Shown here piece by piece: positions 5,279 to 60,697 of a stretch of DNA of 64,000 bases. The stretch is from Alicyclobacillus acidiphilus NBRC 100859 (GTDB lineage Bacteria; Bacillota; Bacilli; Alicyclobacillales; Alicyclobacillaceae), in assembly GCF_001544355.1 (NCBI RefSeq), contig NZ_BCQI01000002.1:62001-126000 (forward strand). The letters run 5' to 3'. The notes under the pieces are model-generated. The model saw only the letters and a program-made list of their open reading frames with translations, had not been told where the DNA came from and searched no databases. The first letter of the stretch is position 1, and each line of letters begins with the position of its first letter. The translations under genes were made by a program, and so were the position numbers.

Positions 5279-7930
5279 ATGGGCTCAGAGCCAAACATGC
5301 TGTCGACGGTGTACGATCCTAAGAATGTCGAAGCCCGCATATACCAGGATTGGGAAACAAAAGGGTACTTTCAGGCCGGGCGGTATCCAGACCGCGAAGC
5401 CTACGCCATCGTCATGCCGCCGCCGAACGTGACAGGGGTGCTCCACCTGGGTCACGCGCTCGACAATACGCTGCAGGATATCATCATCCGTTTCAAACGG
5501 TTGCAGCATTTCGACGCGCTCTGGGTTCCAGGTACGGACCACGCAGGCATCGCCACGCAAACGCGCGTCGAGGCGGCGTTGAAGGAGTCTGAAGGCAAAT
5601 CCCGGCACGATCTCGGCCGTGAAGCGTTCGTGGATCGGGTCTGGGCGTGGAAGCGCGAGTACGGCGGGACCATCACGCAGCAGATTCGCGCGCTGGGCTC
5701 GTCGTGTGACTGGTCGCGCGAGCGATTCACGATGGATCCAGGGCTTTCCGCGGCCGTTCGCGAAGTGTTCGTGACGTTGTACGAAGAGGGCCTCATCTAC
5801 CGAGGAAACCGCATCATCAATTGGTGCCCGCGCTGCACGACCGCGTTGTCGGACATCGAAGTGGAGCACGAGGACGAGGTTGGCACGCTGTACCACGTAC
5901 GGTACCCGCTGGCCGATGGCAGCGGTGACGTGATCATCGCGACGACCCGGCCCGAGACGATGTTCGCTGACGTGGCCGTCGCCGTCCATCCGGCGGACGA
6001 CAGGTATCAATCGCTGGTGGGCAAGTCGATTCGTTTGCCGTTGACGGATCGGACCATTCCGATCATCGCCGACGACTACGTCGAGATGGAGTTTGGAACG
6101 GGCTGTCTGAAAATTACACCCGCGCACGATCCCAACGATTTCGAAGTCGGCTTGCGGCACGATCTCGAGATATTGCAGTGCATCGACAGCGACGGCCGCC
6201 TGAATGACCTGGCAGGCCCCTTTCAAGGCATGACTCGAGAAGAGGCGCGCGTCGCGGTGGCTCAGGCGTTGGAGGACGGCGGCTATCTTCAGAAGCGGGA
6301 GGAACATCCGCACGCGGTCGGGCATTGTGAACGCTGCGGCACGGTGGTGGAACCGTTCCTGTCGGACCAGTGGTTTGTTCACATGGAAGAATTGGCGCGG
6401 CCTGCGCTTGAGCGGGCGAAAGCTGGGGAACTGCGATTCGTGCCGGCGCGCTTCGAGCGGACGTTTGAGCAGTGGCTGGAGAATGTCCGCGATTGGTGTA
6501 TTTCGCGCCAATTGTGGTGGGGCCATCGCATTCCCGCTTGGTACTGCGACGATTGCGGCCAGATTTCCGTATCTCGGCACGACGTCGAAGCGTGCCAACA
6601 CTGCGGATCCACGCATGTCCACCAAGATGAAGACGTGCTCGACACGTGGTTCTCGTCCGCGTTGTGGCCGTTTTCGACGCTTGGCTGGCCGGACAAGGAA
6701 GCGGGCGACCTAACCCGTTATTATCCGACTGGCACACTCGTCACTGGATACGATATTATTTTCTTCTGGGTCGCGCGCATGGTCTTCATGGGTGTGCACT
6801 TCACGAATCAGATGCCGTTTCAAACCGTCGTCCTGCACGGTCTGGTGCGCGACGAACACGGTCAGAAGATGTCGAAGAGCAAGGGCAACGGCGTCGATCC
6901 CATGGACGTGATCGATCGCTACGGCGCAGACGCGCTGCGTTTCATGTTGGCGACAAGCACGTCGCCCGGCAACGATCAACGGTTCACGTGGGATAAGGTC
7001 GAAGGCGCGCGCAACTTCATCAACAAAATGTGGAACGCCTCCCGTTTTGTTCTGATGAATCTCGGAGACGACTTCGAGCCGCAAGCGGTGGATTCGCTCT
7101 CGTTGTCCGTCGCGGATCGCTGGATTTTGCACCGGTTGAACGAAGCTGTGGAAGCAGTGACTCGCCACCTGGAAGCCTACGATTTCGGCGAGGCGGCGCG
7201 GGCGATGTACGATTTCGCCTGGGATGATTTTTGCGACTGGTATATCGAGTTTTCCAAGCTGGCTCTGTACGGTGAGGATGAAACGCGCAAAGGCGCCGTC
7301 AAATCCGTGCTGTACACGGTATTGACGAACCTGTTAACCTTGTTGCATCCGTATATCCCATTTGTGACAGAGGAGATCTGGCAGGCGTTGCCGAAGACAA
7401 CGGAAGCGTTGATCGTTTCTGCGTGGCCTGAGCCGGTCGCATCGTGGCGCGATCGCGACGCGGAACAGCAGATCCATTTGGTCATGGACGCGATTCGCGC
7501 GGTCCGGAACGTCCGCGCTGAACTCCAGGTTCCACCGAGTCAGAAGGTGTCGATGCAAATCCAATGCGACACAGAGGCGGACCTGCGGCTGTTTGAACAG
7601 GTGCGGGACTACGTCATACGCTTCTGCAACGCATCCGATCTCGAGCTTCGAGTGGGTGGGGAAGCTCCGCAGCAATCGGTCACGCAAGTGGTGACGGGCG
7701 CGAGAATCCATATCCCGCTGGAAGGGCTTGTCGACATCGAGGCCGAAAAGTCTCGCCTTCGCAAGGAGGAAGAGCGTCTCGTCGGAGAGGTCGAACGTAT
7801 CGAAAAGAAACTTGCGAATGATCGATTCGTGGCCAAGGCGCCTCCGGAAGTTGTCGAATCAGAGCGAAATAAGTTGCGGGACTACGCCGCTAAACTCGGC
7901 GCGGTCCGCGATCGTATAAAGAGCTTGTAA
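5279..7930 (+). CDS. valS: Valyl-tRNA synthetase
   Basis: This 883-residue class I aminoacyl-tRNA synthetase charges tRNA-Val. The HIGH-type motif is in PPPNVTGVLHLGHALDNTL (about residues 42-60) and the KMSKS loop is GQKMSKSKGNG (about 526). The editing domain lies between them. The C-terminus has the family's coiled-coil arm, from about residue 815 (DIEAEKSRLRKEEERLV). The ATG follows AAGGAGG. It is regulated by the valine T-box upstream. folC follows within 100 bases, as in Bacillus. Confidence 0.98.
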   Translation: MGSEPNMLSTVYDPKNVEARIYQDWETKGYFQAGRYPDREAYAIVMPPPNVTGVLHLGHALDNTLQDIIIRFKRLQHFDALWVPGTDHAGIATQTRVEAALKESEGKSRHDLGREAFVDRVWAWKREYGGTITQQIRALGSSCDWSRERFTMDPGLSAAVREVFVTLYEEGLIYRGNRIINWCPRCTTALSDIEVEHEDEVGTLYHVRYPLADGSGDVIIATTRPETMFADVAVAVHPADDRYQSLVGKSIRLPLTDRTIPIIADDYVEMEFGTGCLKITPAHDPNDFEVGLRHDLEILQCIDSDGRLNDLAGPFQGMTREEARVAVAQALEDGGYLQKREEHPHAVGHCERCGTVVEPFLSDQWFVHMEELARPALERAKAGELRFVPARFERTFEQWLENVRDWCISRQLWWGHRIPAWYCDDCGQISVSRHDVEACQHCGSTHVHQDEDVLDTWFSSALWPFSTLGWPDKEAGDLTRYYPTGTLVTGYDIIFFWVARMVFMGVHFTNQMPFQTVVLHGLVRDEHGQKMSKSKGNGVDPMDVIDRYGADALRFMLATSTSPGNDQRFTWDKVEGARNFINKMWNASRFVLMNLGDDFEPQAVDSLSLSVADRWILHRLNEAVEAVTRHLEAYDFGEAARAMYDFAWDDFCDWYIEFSKLALYGEDETRKGAVKSVLYTVLTNLLTLLHPYIPFVTEEIWQALPKTTEALIVSAWPEPVASWRDRDAEQQIHLVMDAIRAVRNVRAELQVPPSQKVSMQIQCDTEADLRLFEQVRDYVIRFCNASDLELRVGGEAPQQSVTQVVTGARIHIPLEGLVDIEAEKSRLRKEEERLVGEVERIEKKLANDRFVAKAPPEVVESERNKLRDYAAKLGAVRDRIKSL

Positions 7931-51298: not shown

Positions 51299-51509
51299 AG
51301 GGGCCATGGCGAGGTTGGAAGAGATTGTTCGCAAGCTGGAATCCGGCGAACTTCCGCTCGACGAATCGATTCGGCAATATCAGGAGTCGATGCAGTTGGT
51401 GAAATTCTGCCGAGAGCAGCTGGACAAGGCCGAGTTTCAGTTGGAACAGTTGTCCATCGAGCATGCCCAAGCGGATGCGAACGGATCTGGAGAAGTGGAA
51501 GGGGCGTGA
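51252..51509 (+). CDS. xseB: Exodeoxyribonuclease VII small subunit
   Basis: This 85-residue helical subunit has the conserved LTFEGAMARLEEIVRKLESG and LPLDESIRQYQESMQLVKFC. It forms the XseA-XseB complex. The ATG lies inside the last 47 bases of xseA with GGAGGTG upstream, so the two are translationally linked. Its stop overlaps ispA. Confidence 0.97.
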   Translation: MEQTTESENKFDLTFEGAMARLEEIVRKLESGELPLDESIRQYQESMQLVKFCREQLDKAEFQLEQLSIEHAQADANGSGEVEGA

Positions 51510-52393
51510 TCGAGGATATGTCGTCGTACTTGGATACTTGCAAACAGGAATTGAACGAGTATTTGTCCCATGCGCTCACAACCAACGGTTTGGCCGCCAA
51601 GTTGTACGAATCGATGAACTACTCGCTGATGGCTGACGGAAAGCGTCTGCGCCCGGCCCTGCTGATGGCGACCGCGGAAACGTTCGGGGTCTCCCGTCGC
51701 GACGTCCTGCCCGCCGCGGCAGCCGTGGAAATGATTCACTGCTATTCGCTGATTCACGACGATCTCCCGTGCATGGACGACGACAACCTGCGCCGCGGCC
51801 AACCGACCAACCATGTGGTCTACGGCGAAGCGATGGCCTTGCTTGCAGGGGACGGCCTGTTGACGGAGGCGTTTCGCCAGTTGTCGCAACCTGGGCTCGA
51901 CATTCCTGCTTCGAGACAACTGAAAATGGTTCACATTTTGTCCTCGCGAGCCGGAGCGGAAGGGATGGTCGGCGGACAGGCGGTCGATATCGAACGCACG
52001 GGTGGACAGGGAAGTCTCGCCGACGTCGAGTTCATCCACCTGCACAAGACGGCGAGGCTGATTCAGGCGAGCATCGAAATCGGCGCCTTGTTCCCGGATC
52101 TCTCCGATGCCCAGTGGTCGGCCCTGTCGACCTACGGCGAGTCGCTCGGACTTGCGTTCCAGATGATCGACGACGTGCTCGATGTGACGAGATCGACGGA
52201 AGAGCTGGGGAAGACGGCGGGCAAAGACGAGGAAGAAGGCAAGCTGACCTATCCTCGATTCATTGGGGTCGAAGAGACGAAGCGCCTCGCCGAAGAGACG
52301 ATTCAGGCCGGTCAGCAGGCACTGAGGGACAACGGCATTTCCTCGCCGCTGCTGGAGGAATTGCAATCCATGGTGCTTGTCCGATCCCGCTGA
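51506..52393 (+). CDS. ispA: Polyprenyl synthetase (farnesyl/geranyl diphosphate synthase)
   Basis: This 295-residue prenyltransferase elongates isoprenoid diphosphates. The first aspartate-rich motif is in LIHDDLPCMDDDNLRRGQPT (about residues 86-105) and the second is FQMIDDVLDVT (about 223-233). The GTG start overlaps the xseB stop; ATG 51518 is an alternative. dxs does not follow as in many Bacillales; a large noncoding RNA locus does. Confidence 0.96.
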   Translation: MIEDMSSYLDTCKQELNEYLSHALTTNGLAAKLYESMNYSLMADGKRLRPALLMATAETFGVSRRDVLPAAAAVEMIHCYSLIHDDLPCMDDDNLRRGQPTNHVVYGEAMALLAGDGLLTEAFRQLSQPGLDIPASRQLKMVHILSSRAGAEGMVGGQAVDIERTGGQGSLADVEFIHLHKTARLIQASIEIGALFPDLSDAQWSALSTYGESLGLAFQMIDDVLDVTRSTEELGKTAGKDEEEGKLTYPRFIGVEETKRLAEETIQAGQQALRDNGISSPLLEELQSMVLVRSR

Positions 52394-52512: not shown

Positions 52513-52521
52513 TGGTATAAT
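52513..52521 (+). promoter_or_regulatory. Extended -10 promoter for the OLE RNA transcript
   Basis: TGGTATAAT (52513-52521) is a perfect extended -10 element. The -35 region near 52493 is weak, as is common with extended -10. A start near 52528 would produce the long noncoding transcript. Confidence 0.55.
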
Positions 52522-52527
52522 ACATGT

Positions 52528-53165
52528 ACGACTTGCTGACGTAACAACTGAACGTGTTGTTCGTTTGTCAATGGGTGGCGCAGTATTCTAGTCAGCCGTC
52601 CGTACCTGAAGGCGGGGCTAAAAATCCGTCAAAGGGCACATCGATGAAGTTCCTGGTGTTGGCTTGGGGCGCCCAGCCCTGGGCTTATGCTGGGAGTTAA
52701 GAAAGTTGGGTAGCCCGCAATGGCATGTGGATGCTAACCCACCTTTCGCGGAGGCCCAAGTGCGTAGCTCGCAGTCCACTGGCGTGGAAGGGTTATGGCT
52801 TGGGGTATGAACCTGCATGCGGAGGCAATCTGTGTGCAGCGTAGCCTGCCTTGAGTGGTGCTGAAGGATCTCAGGGATTCGAGCGGCATGCCGCGGCCAC
52901 GGTGATGTCGCTGGTGCTGAGTGAAATCCGTACTGCAAAAGAGGCTAGGGCGCGGTAACGGCTGTCGCGGAAAACGCCTAGACTGTTCGCTACAAGGTGA
53001 GGCATCTTGAGGATTATAGTGTGGACTAAGTGGTAATCCAGTCTGACAGGCGGTGACGCGGTCAAGGCGTTCATAATGGGAAACCGCCGTGACGGCGACG
53101 TCGCGGTGAATGCTTGGGAAAACCTACTGGACCTAAGCCACAGCGTTTACTCAAGATGTCGCCAC
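52528..53165 (+). ncRNA. ole: OLE RNA (ornate, large, extremophilic RNA)
   Basis: About 640 bases with no supported reading frame lie between ispA and a gene encoding an OapA-like protein. That is the known setting of OLE RNA in extremophilic Firmicutes. The region is GC-rich and full of local inverted repeats, for example GGGCGCCCAGCCCTGGGC near 52666-52686 and GCGGCATGCCGCGG near 52882-52896. OLE RNA forms a membrane-associated ribonucleoprotein with OapA and is tied to cold, alcohol and metal stress. The call uses length, position, partner gene and recalled conserved blocks; ends are approximate. Confidence 0.85.
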
Positions 53166-53214
53166 CCTTTGATTTTCAATACATATTCCGACATATACGC
53201 GTACGCGAGGATCT

Positions 53215-53799
53215 ATGAGAAAAAACGGTTCGAGAACCAACTATAAATTCGTTTTGACCATCGCCGCACTGACGTTGCCTATCAGTGCGGTTTTCGATAC
53301 ATCCACGATTTTTATGAACAAGACGACTTGGTACATAGGCGCGATCGTGGTGACGTGTATTGTCATTATTGGCGCCGTGTTCGACATGTTGGGCATGGCT
53401 GCCGCGGCGGCTCGGGAAACGCCGTTTCACGCGATGGCGTCAAAGCGGGTTTACGGCGCTCGCAAAGCCATCAGCATCGTTCGCAATGCCGAAAAAGTGT
53501 CGAGTGTGTGCAGCGACGTGATTGGGGATATTGCAGGTGTGCTCAGCGGCGCCGGCGCACTCGCCGTGAGCGTGCAATTGCTGGCGACCATTCACGGTTC
53601 GGGATGGATGGGTGAAACCGTGAAAATCGGCATCACCGCCATCATTACCGCCCTCACTGTGGGCGGTAAGGCGATTGGCAAGACCATCGCCATCCATTCG
53701 CCGACGCCAATCATTCTGTTCGCCGCCCGAGTTTGGGAGACGGCCGTGCTGGTCGTTCGCCGGGGCATTCCATGGCGGAAAAGCAAGTCAAAGTCGTAG
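53215..53799 (+). CDS. oapA: OLE-associated membrane protein OapA
   Basis: This 194-residue protein has several hydrophobic segments (about 12-28, 38-60, 105-125, 130-150 and 162-178) and a basic C-terminus (RRGIPWRKSKSKS). A DxxxD motif is seen as DVIGD at residues 101-105, a feature I recall for this family. OapA binds OLE RNA and places it at the membrane. The ATG has GCGAGGA upstream, about 50 bases after the RNA's apparent end, so RNA and protein are probably co-transcribed. Confidence 0.88.
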   Translation: MRKNGSRTNYKFVLTIAALTLPISAVFDTSTIFMNKTTWYIGAIVVTCIVIIGAVFDMLGMAAAAARETPFHAMASKRVYGARKAISIVRNAEKVSSVCSDVIGDIAGVLSGAGALAVSVQLLATIHGSGWMGETVKIGITAIITALTVGGKAIGKTIAIHSPTPIILFAARVWETAVLVVRRGIPWRKSKSKS

Positions 53800-53821: not shown

Positions 53822-54667
53822 ATGGAAAAGAGAAGGTTGGACGTGCTTCTGTACGATCGCGGAGATTTTCCCAGCCGTGAAGCGGCGCGGCGCGCTGTCA
53901 TGGCAGGCATGGTCGAAGTCGACGGCGTTCGCGTTGACAAGCCAGGCACGCAAGTGGCGACGGACGCGCCCATTCGTGTGAAACGGGCCGATCACGCGTT
54001 CGTGTCCCGCGGTGGACTCAAGCTCGAACGGGCCCTGTCGCGGTTTGGTGTCCCGGTCAAGGATCGGATCGCCATCGACGTTGGCGCTTCGACCGGCGGC
54101 TTCACGGATTGTTTGCTCCAACATGGGGCGAGAATGGTCTATTCGGTGGATGTGGGTTATGGGCAGCTTGCGTGGTCACTGCGCCAGGATGCGCGGGTGC
54201 GCGTCATGGAACGCCTCAATTTTCGCCACGCGGACGCGGCGCTGTTCGTCCCGAAGCCCAATTTGGCCGTGATGGACGTGTCGTTTATCTCCACGAAACT
54301 GCTCTTCGCCAAGTTGGTCGAAGTGTGTGAGCCGGACTCGGATGTCGTCAGTTTGGTGAAGCCGCAATTTGAGGCAGGGCGGGGCCGCGTCGGAAAAGGT
54401 GGAATTGTCCGAGATCCGAATGTTCATTTGGACGTGTTAGTGGACATGCTGGATCATGTCACATCCATCGGCTGGTCCTGCAACGGTTTGGATTTTTCAC
54501 CGATTTCCGGCGGCGACGGGAATATCGAATTTCTCGCGTGGTGGAAGATGAGCGGCTCACCTTCCGAACAAGCCGCCACAGGACAGTGGCGAGACGCCTG
54601 TCCCGAACTGGTGAAAACGGCTTGGCAGACGCTCAACGGCGCGTCTGTCGATCTCCGCGTTGATTAA
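53822..54667 (+). CDS. tlyA: TlyA-family rRNA methyltransferase (YqxC)
   Basis: This 281-residue protein has an N-terminal S4 RNA-binding domain (about 1-65, RRLDVLLYDRGDFPSREAAR). An FtsJ/RrmJ-like methyltransferase follows with AIDVGASTGGFTDCLLQ (about 81-97) and LVKPQFEAGRGRVGKGG. The family 2'-O-methylates ribosomal RNA; B. subtilis YqxC lies at the same place. ATG 53822 has GGAGAGG upstream. The open frame extends into oapA without need. Confidence 0.93.
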   Translation: MEKRRLDVLLYDRGDFPSREAARRAVMAGMVEVDGVRVDKPGTQVATDAPIRVKRADHAFVSRGGLKLERALSRFGVPVKDRIAIDVGASTGGFTDCLLQHGARMVYSVDVGYGQLAWSLRQDARVRVMERLNFRHADAALFVPKPNLAVMDVSFISTKLLFAKLVEVCEPDSDVVSLVKPQFEAGRGRVGKGGIVRDPNVHLDVLVDMLDHVTSIGWSCNGLDFSPISGGDGNIEFLAWWKMSGSPSEQAATGQWRDACPELVKTAWQTLNGASVDLRVD

Positions 54668-54682
54668 GACCAGCTCCATTCC

Positions 54683-55207
54683 GTGACGGTTTGGAGTTGC
54701 ATTGACGTGTTGAATGCTTTGGCCATGGTGGGAGCTTTGGTGTGTTTGACGGTTGTGATTCGCTCGCTGTGGTTCGCCTTTTGGTATCGCAACAGTGAAG
54801 AGGGTGTCGAAGGCGGGCTGTCGCAAGTTCGCAAATGGCTTCAGGCAAACGGGTATGACGTATTGAATGTCAAGGGTAAAGCCGAGTACAAAACGCTGTT
54901 CGACGATGTATGCATGGAATACTCCGAGAATGCGCCGTTTATTGCGCGCAAGGACGGGCATGAGTATGCTGTATTTGTGGAGTTGGACGAAACGCCCAAC
55001 GAAGAGATTCACGCTCGATATTTTCCCTTGTCGGTGATCCTCGGTGTGCGCGGGGTCATCGTCGTCGACATATTCCGAGAACGCGTGCGACACGTGGAAT
55101 TTCAGATTCTGAAAACAAGGCGCCAAGTCATTCGGCAATGGGTGAGGAATAGCGTTTGGTTCGCAAGCGGTGCGCTATTCATCTTCGGGTGGCTTCATCG
55201 TGGATAG
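54683..55207 (+). CDS. Hypothetical membrane protein (174 aa)
   Basis: I do not recognise this protein. It has an N-terminal hydrophobic helix (about 10-33), a soluble middle of roughly 110 residues containing VRKWLQANGYDVLNVKGKAE and a possible alpha/beta core, and a C-terminal helix (about 152-171). The GTG start lacks a clear SD; starts at 54707 to 54725 are possible. It lies between tlyA and nadK. Coding looks real from length, spacing and composition. Confidence 0.7.
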   Translation: MTVWSCIDVLNALAMVGALVCLTVVIRSLWFAFWYRNSEEGVEGGLSQVRKWLQANGYDVLNVKGKAEYKTLFDDVCMEYSENAPFIARKDGHEYAVFVELDETPNEEIHARYFPLSVILGVRGVIVVDIFRERVRHVEFQILKTRRQVIRQWVRNSVWFASGALFIFGWLHRG

Positions 55208-60688: not shown

Positions 60689-60697
60689 TGGTATAAT
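60689..60697 (+). promoter_or_regulatory. Extended -10 promoter of hemQ
   Basis: TGGTATAAT at 60689-60697 is a perfect extended -10, 22 bases before the hemQ start. The -35 region is weak. Confidence 0.55.

Follow-up and report, generated by a model that had tools for sequence, protein, structure and literature searches.

Among structured bacterial RNAs that still lack an assigned biochemical function, OLE RNA is, to our knowledge, one of the largest. In H. halodurans, the P5 region of the RNA has been described as the kink turn site of the protein OapC (PMC9723947), and the highly conserved G-C pairs of P6 have been reported to be needed by bS21 (PMC12054373). The A-rich loop of P4 is a dimer contact in the cryo-EM models (PMC12265935), and the GGCC sequence of P9 is described as the kissing loop of the OLE dimer (PMC12286853). 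The relation of H. halodurans OapA to the CNNM proteins is already published. According to a published hypothesis, the RNA and its small proteins stand in for CBS and CorC in sensing or gating (PMC11332333). The same source reports a near-perfect co-occurrence of OLE and OapA, and the linkage of dxs to ole has been taken to suggest that the two are functionally connected (PMC10898510).

The locus described here lies within a stretch of 64 kb, called the window throughout, from a genome of the genus Alicyclobacillus. It is a complete, bona fide OLE-OapA locus of this already known family. With a probability of roughly 0.93, it constitutes an intact ole-oapA unit comprised of a complete OLE RNA, its promoter and oapA, the products of which would, by homology, form an RNA-protein particle at the membrane. 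The details of the RNA and its surroundings that are specific to the clade are a remodelled P6, a longer 5' end and a displaced dxs.

The ole-oapA unit

The search of the whole window against Rfam found three families, of which OLE is the best by far. Nucleotides 52559 to 53181 of the forward strand match RF01071 over model positions 1-616 with a score of 516.7 bits (E 1.2e-148), about ten times the gathering score of 50 bits, and this is the only OLE match in the genome. The covariance model thus bears out the family identity proposed in an earlier note on this DNA. The gap of about 640 bases, from which that proposal had started, also stands: it extends from the end of ispA at 52393 to the start of oapA at 53215, the OLE model spans the RNA stretch within it, and all 616 model positions are covered. 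ORFs are listed inside the gap, for example one of 106 aa on the reverse strand (52618-52938). The 'structure-rich repeats' of the earlier note are read as the stems of OLE. Of the 'extremophilic or anaerobic' Firmicutes that it names as carriers of OLE, the host, as a relative of Alicyclobacillus, a genus of aerobic acidophiles, does not belong with the anaerobes.

The elements of the RNA can be followed along the forward strand. P4, with the A-rich loop CTAAAAA, occupies 52611-52630 in the model alignment, the assignment to P4 being our own. P5 and its joining strands probably map to 52640-52701, where the outer strands are close to the OLE consensus. The P6 stem, which is the bS21 site in H. 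halodurans, lies at 52701-52747 in the alignment of OLE rows, and its inner loop is remodelled in the family of the host. The GGCC palindrome of the P9 loop is found by the model alignment at 52895-52898. Domain 2, the P10-P15 side, extends over 52988-53159 according to the structure line of the model, with a boundary of our own choosing, and should include the P12.2/P13 site of OapB. The window RNA shows no departure from the bases kept in at least 90% of 43 OLE RNAs. Elsewhere in the window there is a T-box leader (RF00230, 5030-5233, 101.9 bits), about 45 bases ahead of a large ORF (5279-7930) that presumably encodes a valyl-tRNA synthetase, and a ribosomal protein L21 leader (RF00559, 20783-20858, 46.6 bits). 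ARAGORN found no tRNA genes in the window.

The claim that the RNA has its own extended -10 promoter proved sound. The sequence TGGTATAAT is located at 52513-52521 of the forward strand, and transcription is predicted to start near 52528. The pattern TGNTATAAT occurs at 2 sites in the 64 kb against 0.32 expected, a number reached by 5 of 100 shuffles; the only other exact copy is at 60689-60697. The form TGNTATA[AC]T is present upstream of OLE in all 43 loci obtained from searches of relatives, the window's included. Of 76 named loci, 48 also have it ahead of OLE, while only 3 of 1216 stretches of equal length further upstream contain it, and the other 28 loci mostly have, by eye, close forms such as TGnTATATT; the two sets of loci overlap, with seven genomes of the family represented in both. 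A scan for two-hexamer sigma-70 promoters found no consensus -35. The ole promoter is accepted because its extended -10 element is conserved, despite the absence of a match to the sigma-70 consensus.

The -10 element is separated from the conserved GTGG of OLE by 53 bases (52522-52574, forward strand). This spacing is 27-56 nucleotides in all 14 loci of the genus that were compared (15 genomes of the genus were searched and one, G010, was left out) and 14-20 nucleotides in all 29 others. If transcription starts about 7 nucleotides past the -10 element, the RNA of the genus would be longer by roughly 35 bases. The extra 5' bases look poorly conserved beyond close relatives.

The gene oapA (53215-53799) starts 33 bases downstream of the OLE match on the same strand and encodes a multi-pass protein of 194 aa with the motif DVIGD at residues 101-105. 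It was this motif that had suggested OapA, and sequence, profile and structure comparisons agree with the assignment. The protein is 38-79% identical to 19 other rows, all of them products of oapA neighbours of OLE, and D101, G104 and D105 do not vary among the 20 aligned rows. The best named relative among the matches listed is from Alicyclobacillus suci (83%), and the search for OapA gave one match in each of the 41 genomes of the family. The sole Pfam family listed for the protein is CNNM (PF01595), with E 2.2e-4 and 21.4 bits, below the cut-off of 28.4; no CBS or CorC domains were matched in OapA, and no PDB chain matched its sequence at E up to 1. The AlphaFold model has helices over most of its length (pLDDT 67.4, pTM 0.50). 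The top six chains found with it by Foldseek are CNNM proteins, at E values of 0.011-0.49, none of which reaches 0.001. VIA-align gave Z values of 11.2 (over 131 residues), 10.5, 9.4 and 9.2 with CNNM structures and 8.6 with the unrelated SMAC, on a scale where helical bundles may reach a Z near 13 through arrangement alone. The model comparisons are supportive, though not proof, of a resemblance between OapA and the CNNM transmembrane domain.

The flanking genes are also as previously named: both matches are over their cut-offs, that of ispA (farnesyl diphosphate synthase, 51506-52393) to NF045485 with 341.9 bits, and that of tlyA (a TlyA-family rRNA methyltransferase, 53822-54667) to TIGR00478 with 270 bits, and both genes are on the forward strand. 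An ORF of 174 aa after tlyA (54683-55207) has a sub-threshold match to UPF0180 (21.1 of 25.4 bits).

Genes for the other partners are found in the same genome. The OapB candidate, searched for in this genome only, matches the 'OLE-associated protein B' of PDB entry 7k9b (E 1.6e-16) and is encoded between ORFs read as adk and infA. The OapC/YbxF candidate, encoded between ORFs read as rpoC and rpsL, matches 3v7e and 4lck (E about 2e-18), and bS21 is matched with 67.1 bits. Across the family, L7Ae-family proteins are matched in 41 of 41 genomes and bS21 in 40 of 41.

P6 and domain 2 in the family

The P6 alignment contains 121 OLE rows, of which 40, representing 33 distinct genomes, come from the family and 81, all distinct, from elsewhere; nearly all rows are from Bacilli, and the motif that follows is a feature of this sample rather than a criterion of the Rfam family. 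The inner part of P6, GGGCGA...GCGNNGACCC, is found in 80 of the 81 rows outside the family and is replaced in all 33 distinct OLE RNAs within it. The core loop CGA/GCGNNGA is accordingly present in none of the 33 family rows, the window's included, against 80 of 81 others; the sole exception outside is L156, an Oscillospiraceae MAG. All 33 distinct family rows and all 81 others retain the three G-C pairs below the inner loop (GGG/CCC). Since the family rows come from related genomes, a single ancestral change would account for all of them.

By our own mapping, the G-C pairs kept in the family are those needed by bS21, so that bS21 binding may well persist; since the P6 core differs, it may also be altered. 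A loss of bS21 binding through the loss of CCUCCU was considered and rejected. CCUCCU is present in only 3 of the 81 other rows, and the mutants M1-M3, which alter the anti-Shine-Dalgarno match, are reported still to bind bS21 (PMC12054373). Three new covarying pairs in the P6 of the family were likewise dropped as a candidate, the same columns all pairing in 56 of the 81 other rows. All three pairs form in 19 of the 33 distinct family rows, against a mean of 11.9 and a maximum of 18 in 2000 shuffles that ignore relatedness. As regards the P6 pairs, only the changed loop is claimed. A family with a rebuilt P6 core offers a way to ask what bS21 and the kink-turn switch require of the bases in P6.

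A set of OLE RNAs from presumably acid-growing hosts, compared with those related to the OLE of the alkaliphile H. halodurans, offers a natural test of the position of domain 2. Host pH labels are our assumption from genus names and are open to question for Pseudalkalibacillus and Bacillus sp. JCM 19034. The proposal of a transmembrane RNA (PMC12265935), applied to the window, would place domain 2 outside the membrane, in acid medium; the published cryo-EM models and the length of P3 speak for it. If it were true, domain 2 would meet acid in the family and alkali in the relatives of H. halodurans, with domain 1 cytoplasmic in both. The divergence of domain 2 (D2) was compared with that of domain 1 (D1, 52612-52952), the limits of both being our own. 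The median D2/D1, over pairs that are not independent, is 0.89 between the family and the presumed alkaliphiles (256 pairs) and the same, 0.89, within the eight alkaliphile-labelled rows (28 pairs), i.e. domain 2 shows no extra divergence. The median is 0.94 between alkaliphiles and others (480 pairs), 0.97 between the family and others (1920 pairs), 0.98 within the 60 other named rows (1770 pairs) and 1.20 within the family (496 pairs). The last value, higher than elsewhere, is a point against a simple reading. Near-fixed differences of the family number two in domain 1 and none in domain 2; against 13 other rows, an earlier count had arrived at six such differences, of which four fall in P6 and the remaining two in the stretch that separates the domains.

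The D2/D1 comparison, a weak test in which strong constraint could mask adaptation, gives no sign of an adaptation of domain 2 to a medium differing by many pH units, and would bear weakly on the proposal that domain 2 is outside. A second, equally indirect point comes from the host's OapB, the counterpart of the protein that binds domain 2. Its match to the solved OapB begins so near the N-terminus, with residue 8 in the 106-aa form and residue 13 in the 111-aa form, that a signal peptide would not fit ahead of it. An external domain 2 in this organism is considered unlikely.

These observations can be combined into a more far-reaching proposal, which is put forward only tentatively and is probably not correct as a whole. 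The OLE RNA of the Alicyclobacillaceae would be a distinct structural variant, in which another element, partly Watson-Crick in its pairing, has taken the place of the P6 core loop, transcription of the RNA starts further upstream in one genus, and domain 2, being as constant as domain 1 across acid and alkaline hosts, faces the buffered cytoplasm, against the transmembrane-RNA model.

Distribution and gene neighbourhood

OLE was found in 40 of the 41 genomes of the family. The exception, G025, was at first a candidate for a genome with OapA and without OLE. It was rejected: its oapA is 104 bases from the end of a contig, and the named record L091 keeps the last 89 bases of OLE there (51.2 bits), so that the RNA is interrupted by a contig break. 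Among 398 genomes drawn from the class, OLE is over the cut-off in 86. The OapA profile matches in 93, and the 87 strong matches are those in the 86 OLE genomes and G025, so that OapA is present in 86 of 86 OLE genomes. The six matches set aside are four frames of 459 aa and one of 444 aa (E 1.6e-4 to 1e-3), which are probably CNNM proteins, and that of G150. In G150 (C18:239919-240242) the OapA-like frame is decayed and contains five stops (E 3.4e-5), and in G142 (C1:9598-9671) a 22.9-bit remnant of OLE without an OapA match. Both are possible traces of a loss of the system.

The proximity of the two genes invites the explanation that OLE works mainly in cis, as a riboswitch-like or attenuator leader of oapA-tlyA, and is not the RNA of a particle acting in trans. 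OLE is indeed directly ahead of oapA and shares its strand, on which no terminator-like site was found between the two. The pair, however, is kept where it is not adjacent. In 7 of the 86 OLE genomes (G051, G059, G072, G168, G178, G197 and G207), a divergent OapA match is at a distant place. Among the named loci, nhmmer finds OLE in 79 of 80, 78 of them near full length, and the remaining one, Caenibacillus (L095/G409), has an OLE in its genome but none within 3.5 kb of oapA. In H. halodurans, moreover, the partner proteins are reported to pull down OLE RNA (PMC9723947). A leader function as the main role of the RNA is consequently very improbable. The least tenable explanation, a decaying or non-functional copy, is practically dismissed by the unbroken set of conserved bases, the full-length model match and the intact oapA; no support for decay was found, and the departure of the window from the P6 consensus is shared by the whole family.

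The intact ole-oapA unit has lost a neighbour that is common elsewhere. Of 43 loci, 32 carry the gene dxs downstream of the OLE-oapA site, whereas in the other 11, the window included, tlyA directly follows oapA. At one of the 32, L038 (G059), there is no oapA and dxs directly follows OLE. All 41 genomes of the family have dxs, and in the genome of the window it is on contig C10. Two full-length or nearly full-length copies, one beside ole and one elsewhere, are present in G003, G006, G007, G013, G036 and G037, the first four of which are the genomes of the host genus with both a linked and an unlinked dxs. In a tree of 38 Dxs rows, the unlinked copies fall into two separate, well supported groups of 14 and 4 rows. 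Two or more separate losses of the linkage thus seem likely, one in the host genus and one in the genus of G031 and G032, with ole retained.

The only CNNM-domain match in the genome of the window is oapA itself. A full CNNM protein accompanies OLE in 5 of the 41 family genomes (G003, G006, G007, G013 and G029). MpfA has thus not been replaced throughout, and the published anticorrelation between OLE and MpfA holds mostly, though not in every genome, in the family.

Probable role and comparison with known systems

By analogy with the described particles, the OLE RNA of the window would form a two-fold dimer through the A-rich loop of P4 and the GGCC loop of P9, and would be held at the membrane by OapA dimers. 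The small proteins may then bind to it, OapC to the P5 kink turn, OapB to P12.2/P13 and bS21 to P6. Most probably, such a particle would serve as a membrane-bound device controlling the response to stress and divalent metals (Mg2+). OapA may provide a CNNM-like transport part, which the RNA and the small proteins may sense for or gate in the way CBS and CorC do in MpfA.

The window locus is one more complete example of OLE, and its mere presence adds little. For the change in P6, the spacing from the -10 element, the departure of dxs and the constancy of domain 2, no earlier report was found in the main texts of the open papers that were consulted.

H. halodurans is absent from the row set and its features are taken from the papers. 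With its OLE-OapA system the locus shares the full-length RNA, the downstream position of oapA, the DxxxD motif and the presence of the genes for OapB, OapC and bS21, and, within the RNA, the kink-turn strands, the A-rich P4 loop and the GGCC loop of P9. Unlike in H. halodurans, the inner loop of P6 is replaced, the 5' end is longer and dxs is away from oapA. The P6 of the window also differs from that of H. halodurans in being without CCUCCU, the anti-Shine-Dalgarno match. MpfA, CorB and CorC, the CNNM exporters of Mg2+, resemble OapA in the predicted fold of the transmembrane domain. In contrast to them, OapA carries no matched CBS or CorC domain, has the DxxxD motif and stays below the Pfam cut-off (21.4 of 28.4 bits). 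The variant 1 and variant 2 OLE RNAs of the TANB77 and RF39 clades, as described in PMC11332333, belong to the same family; in these variants P7-P9 or the site of OapB is reduced or missing, whereas the OLE RNA of the window is of full length.
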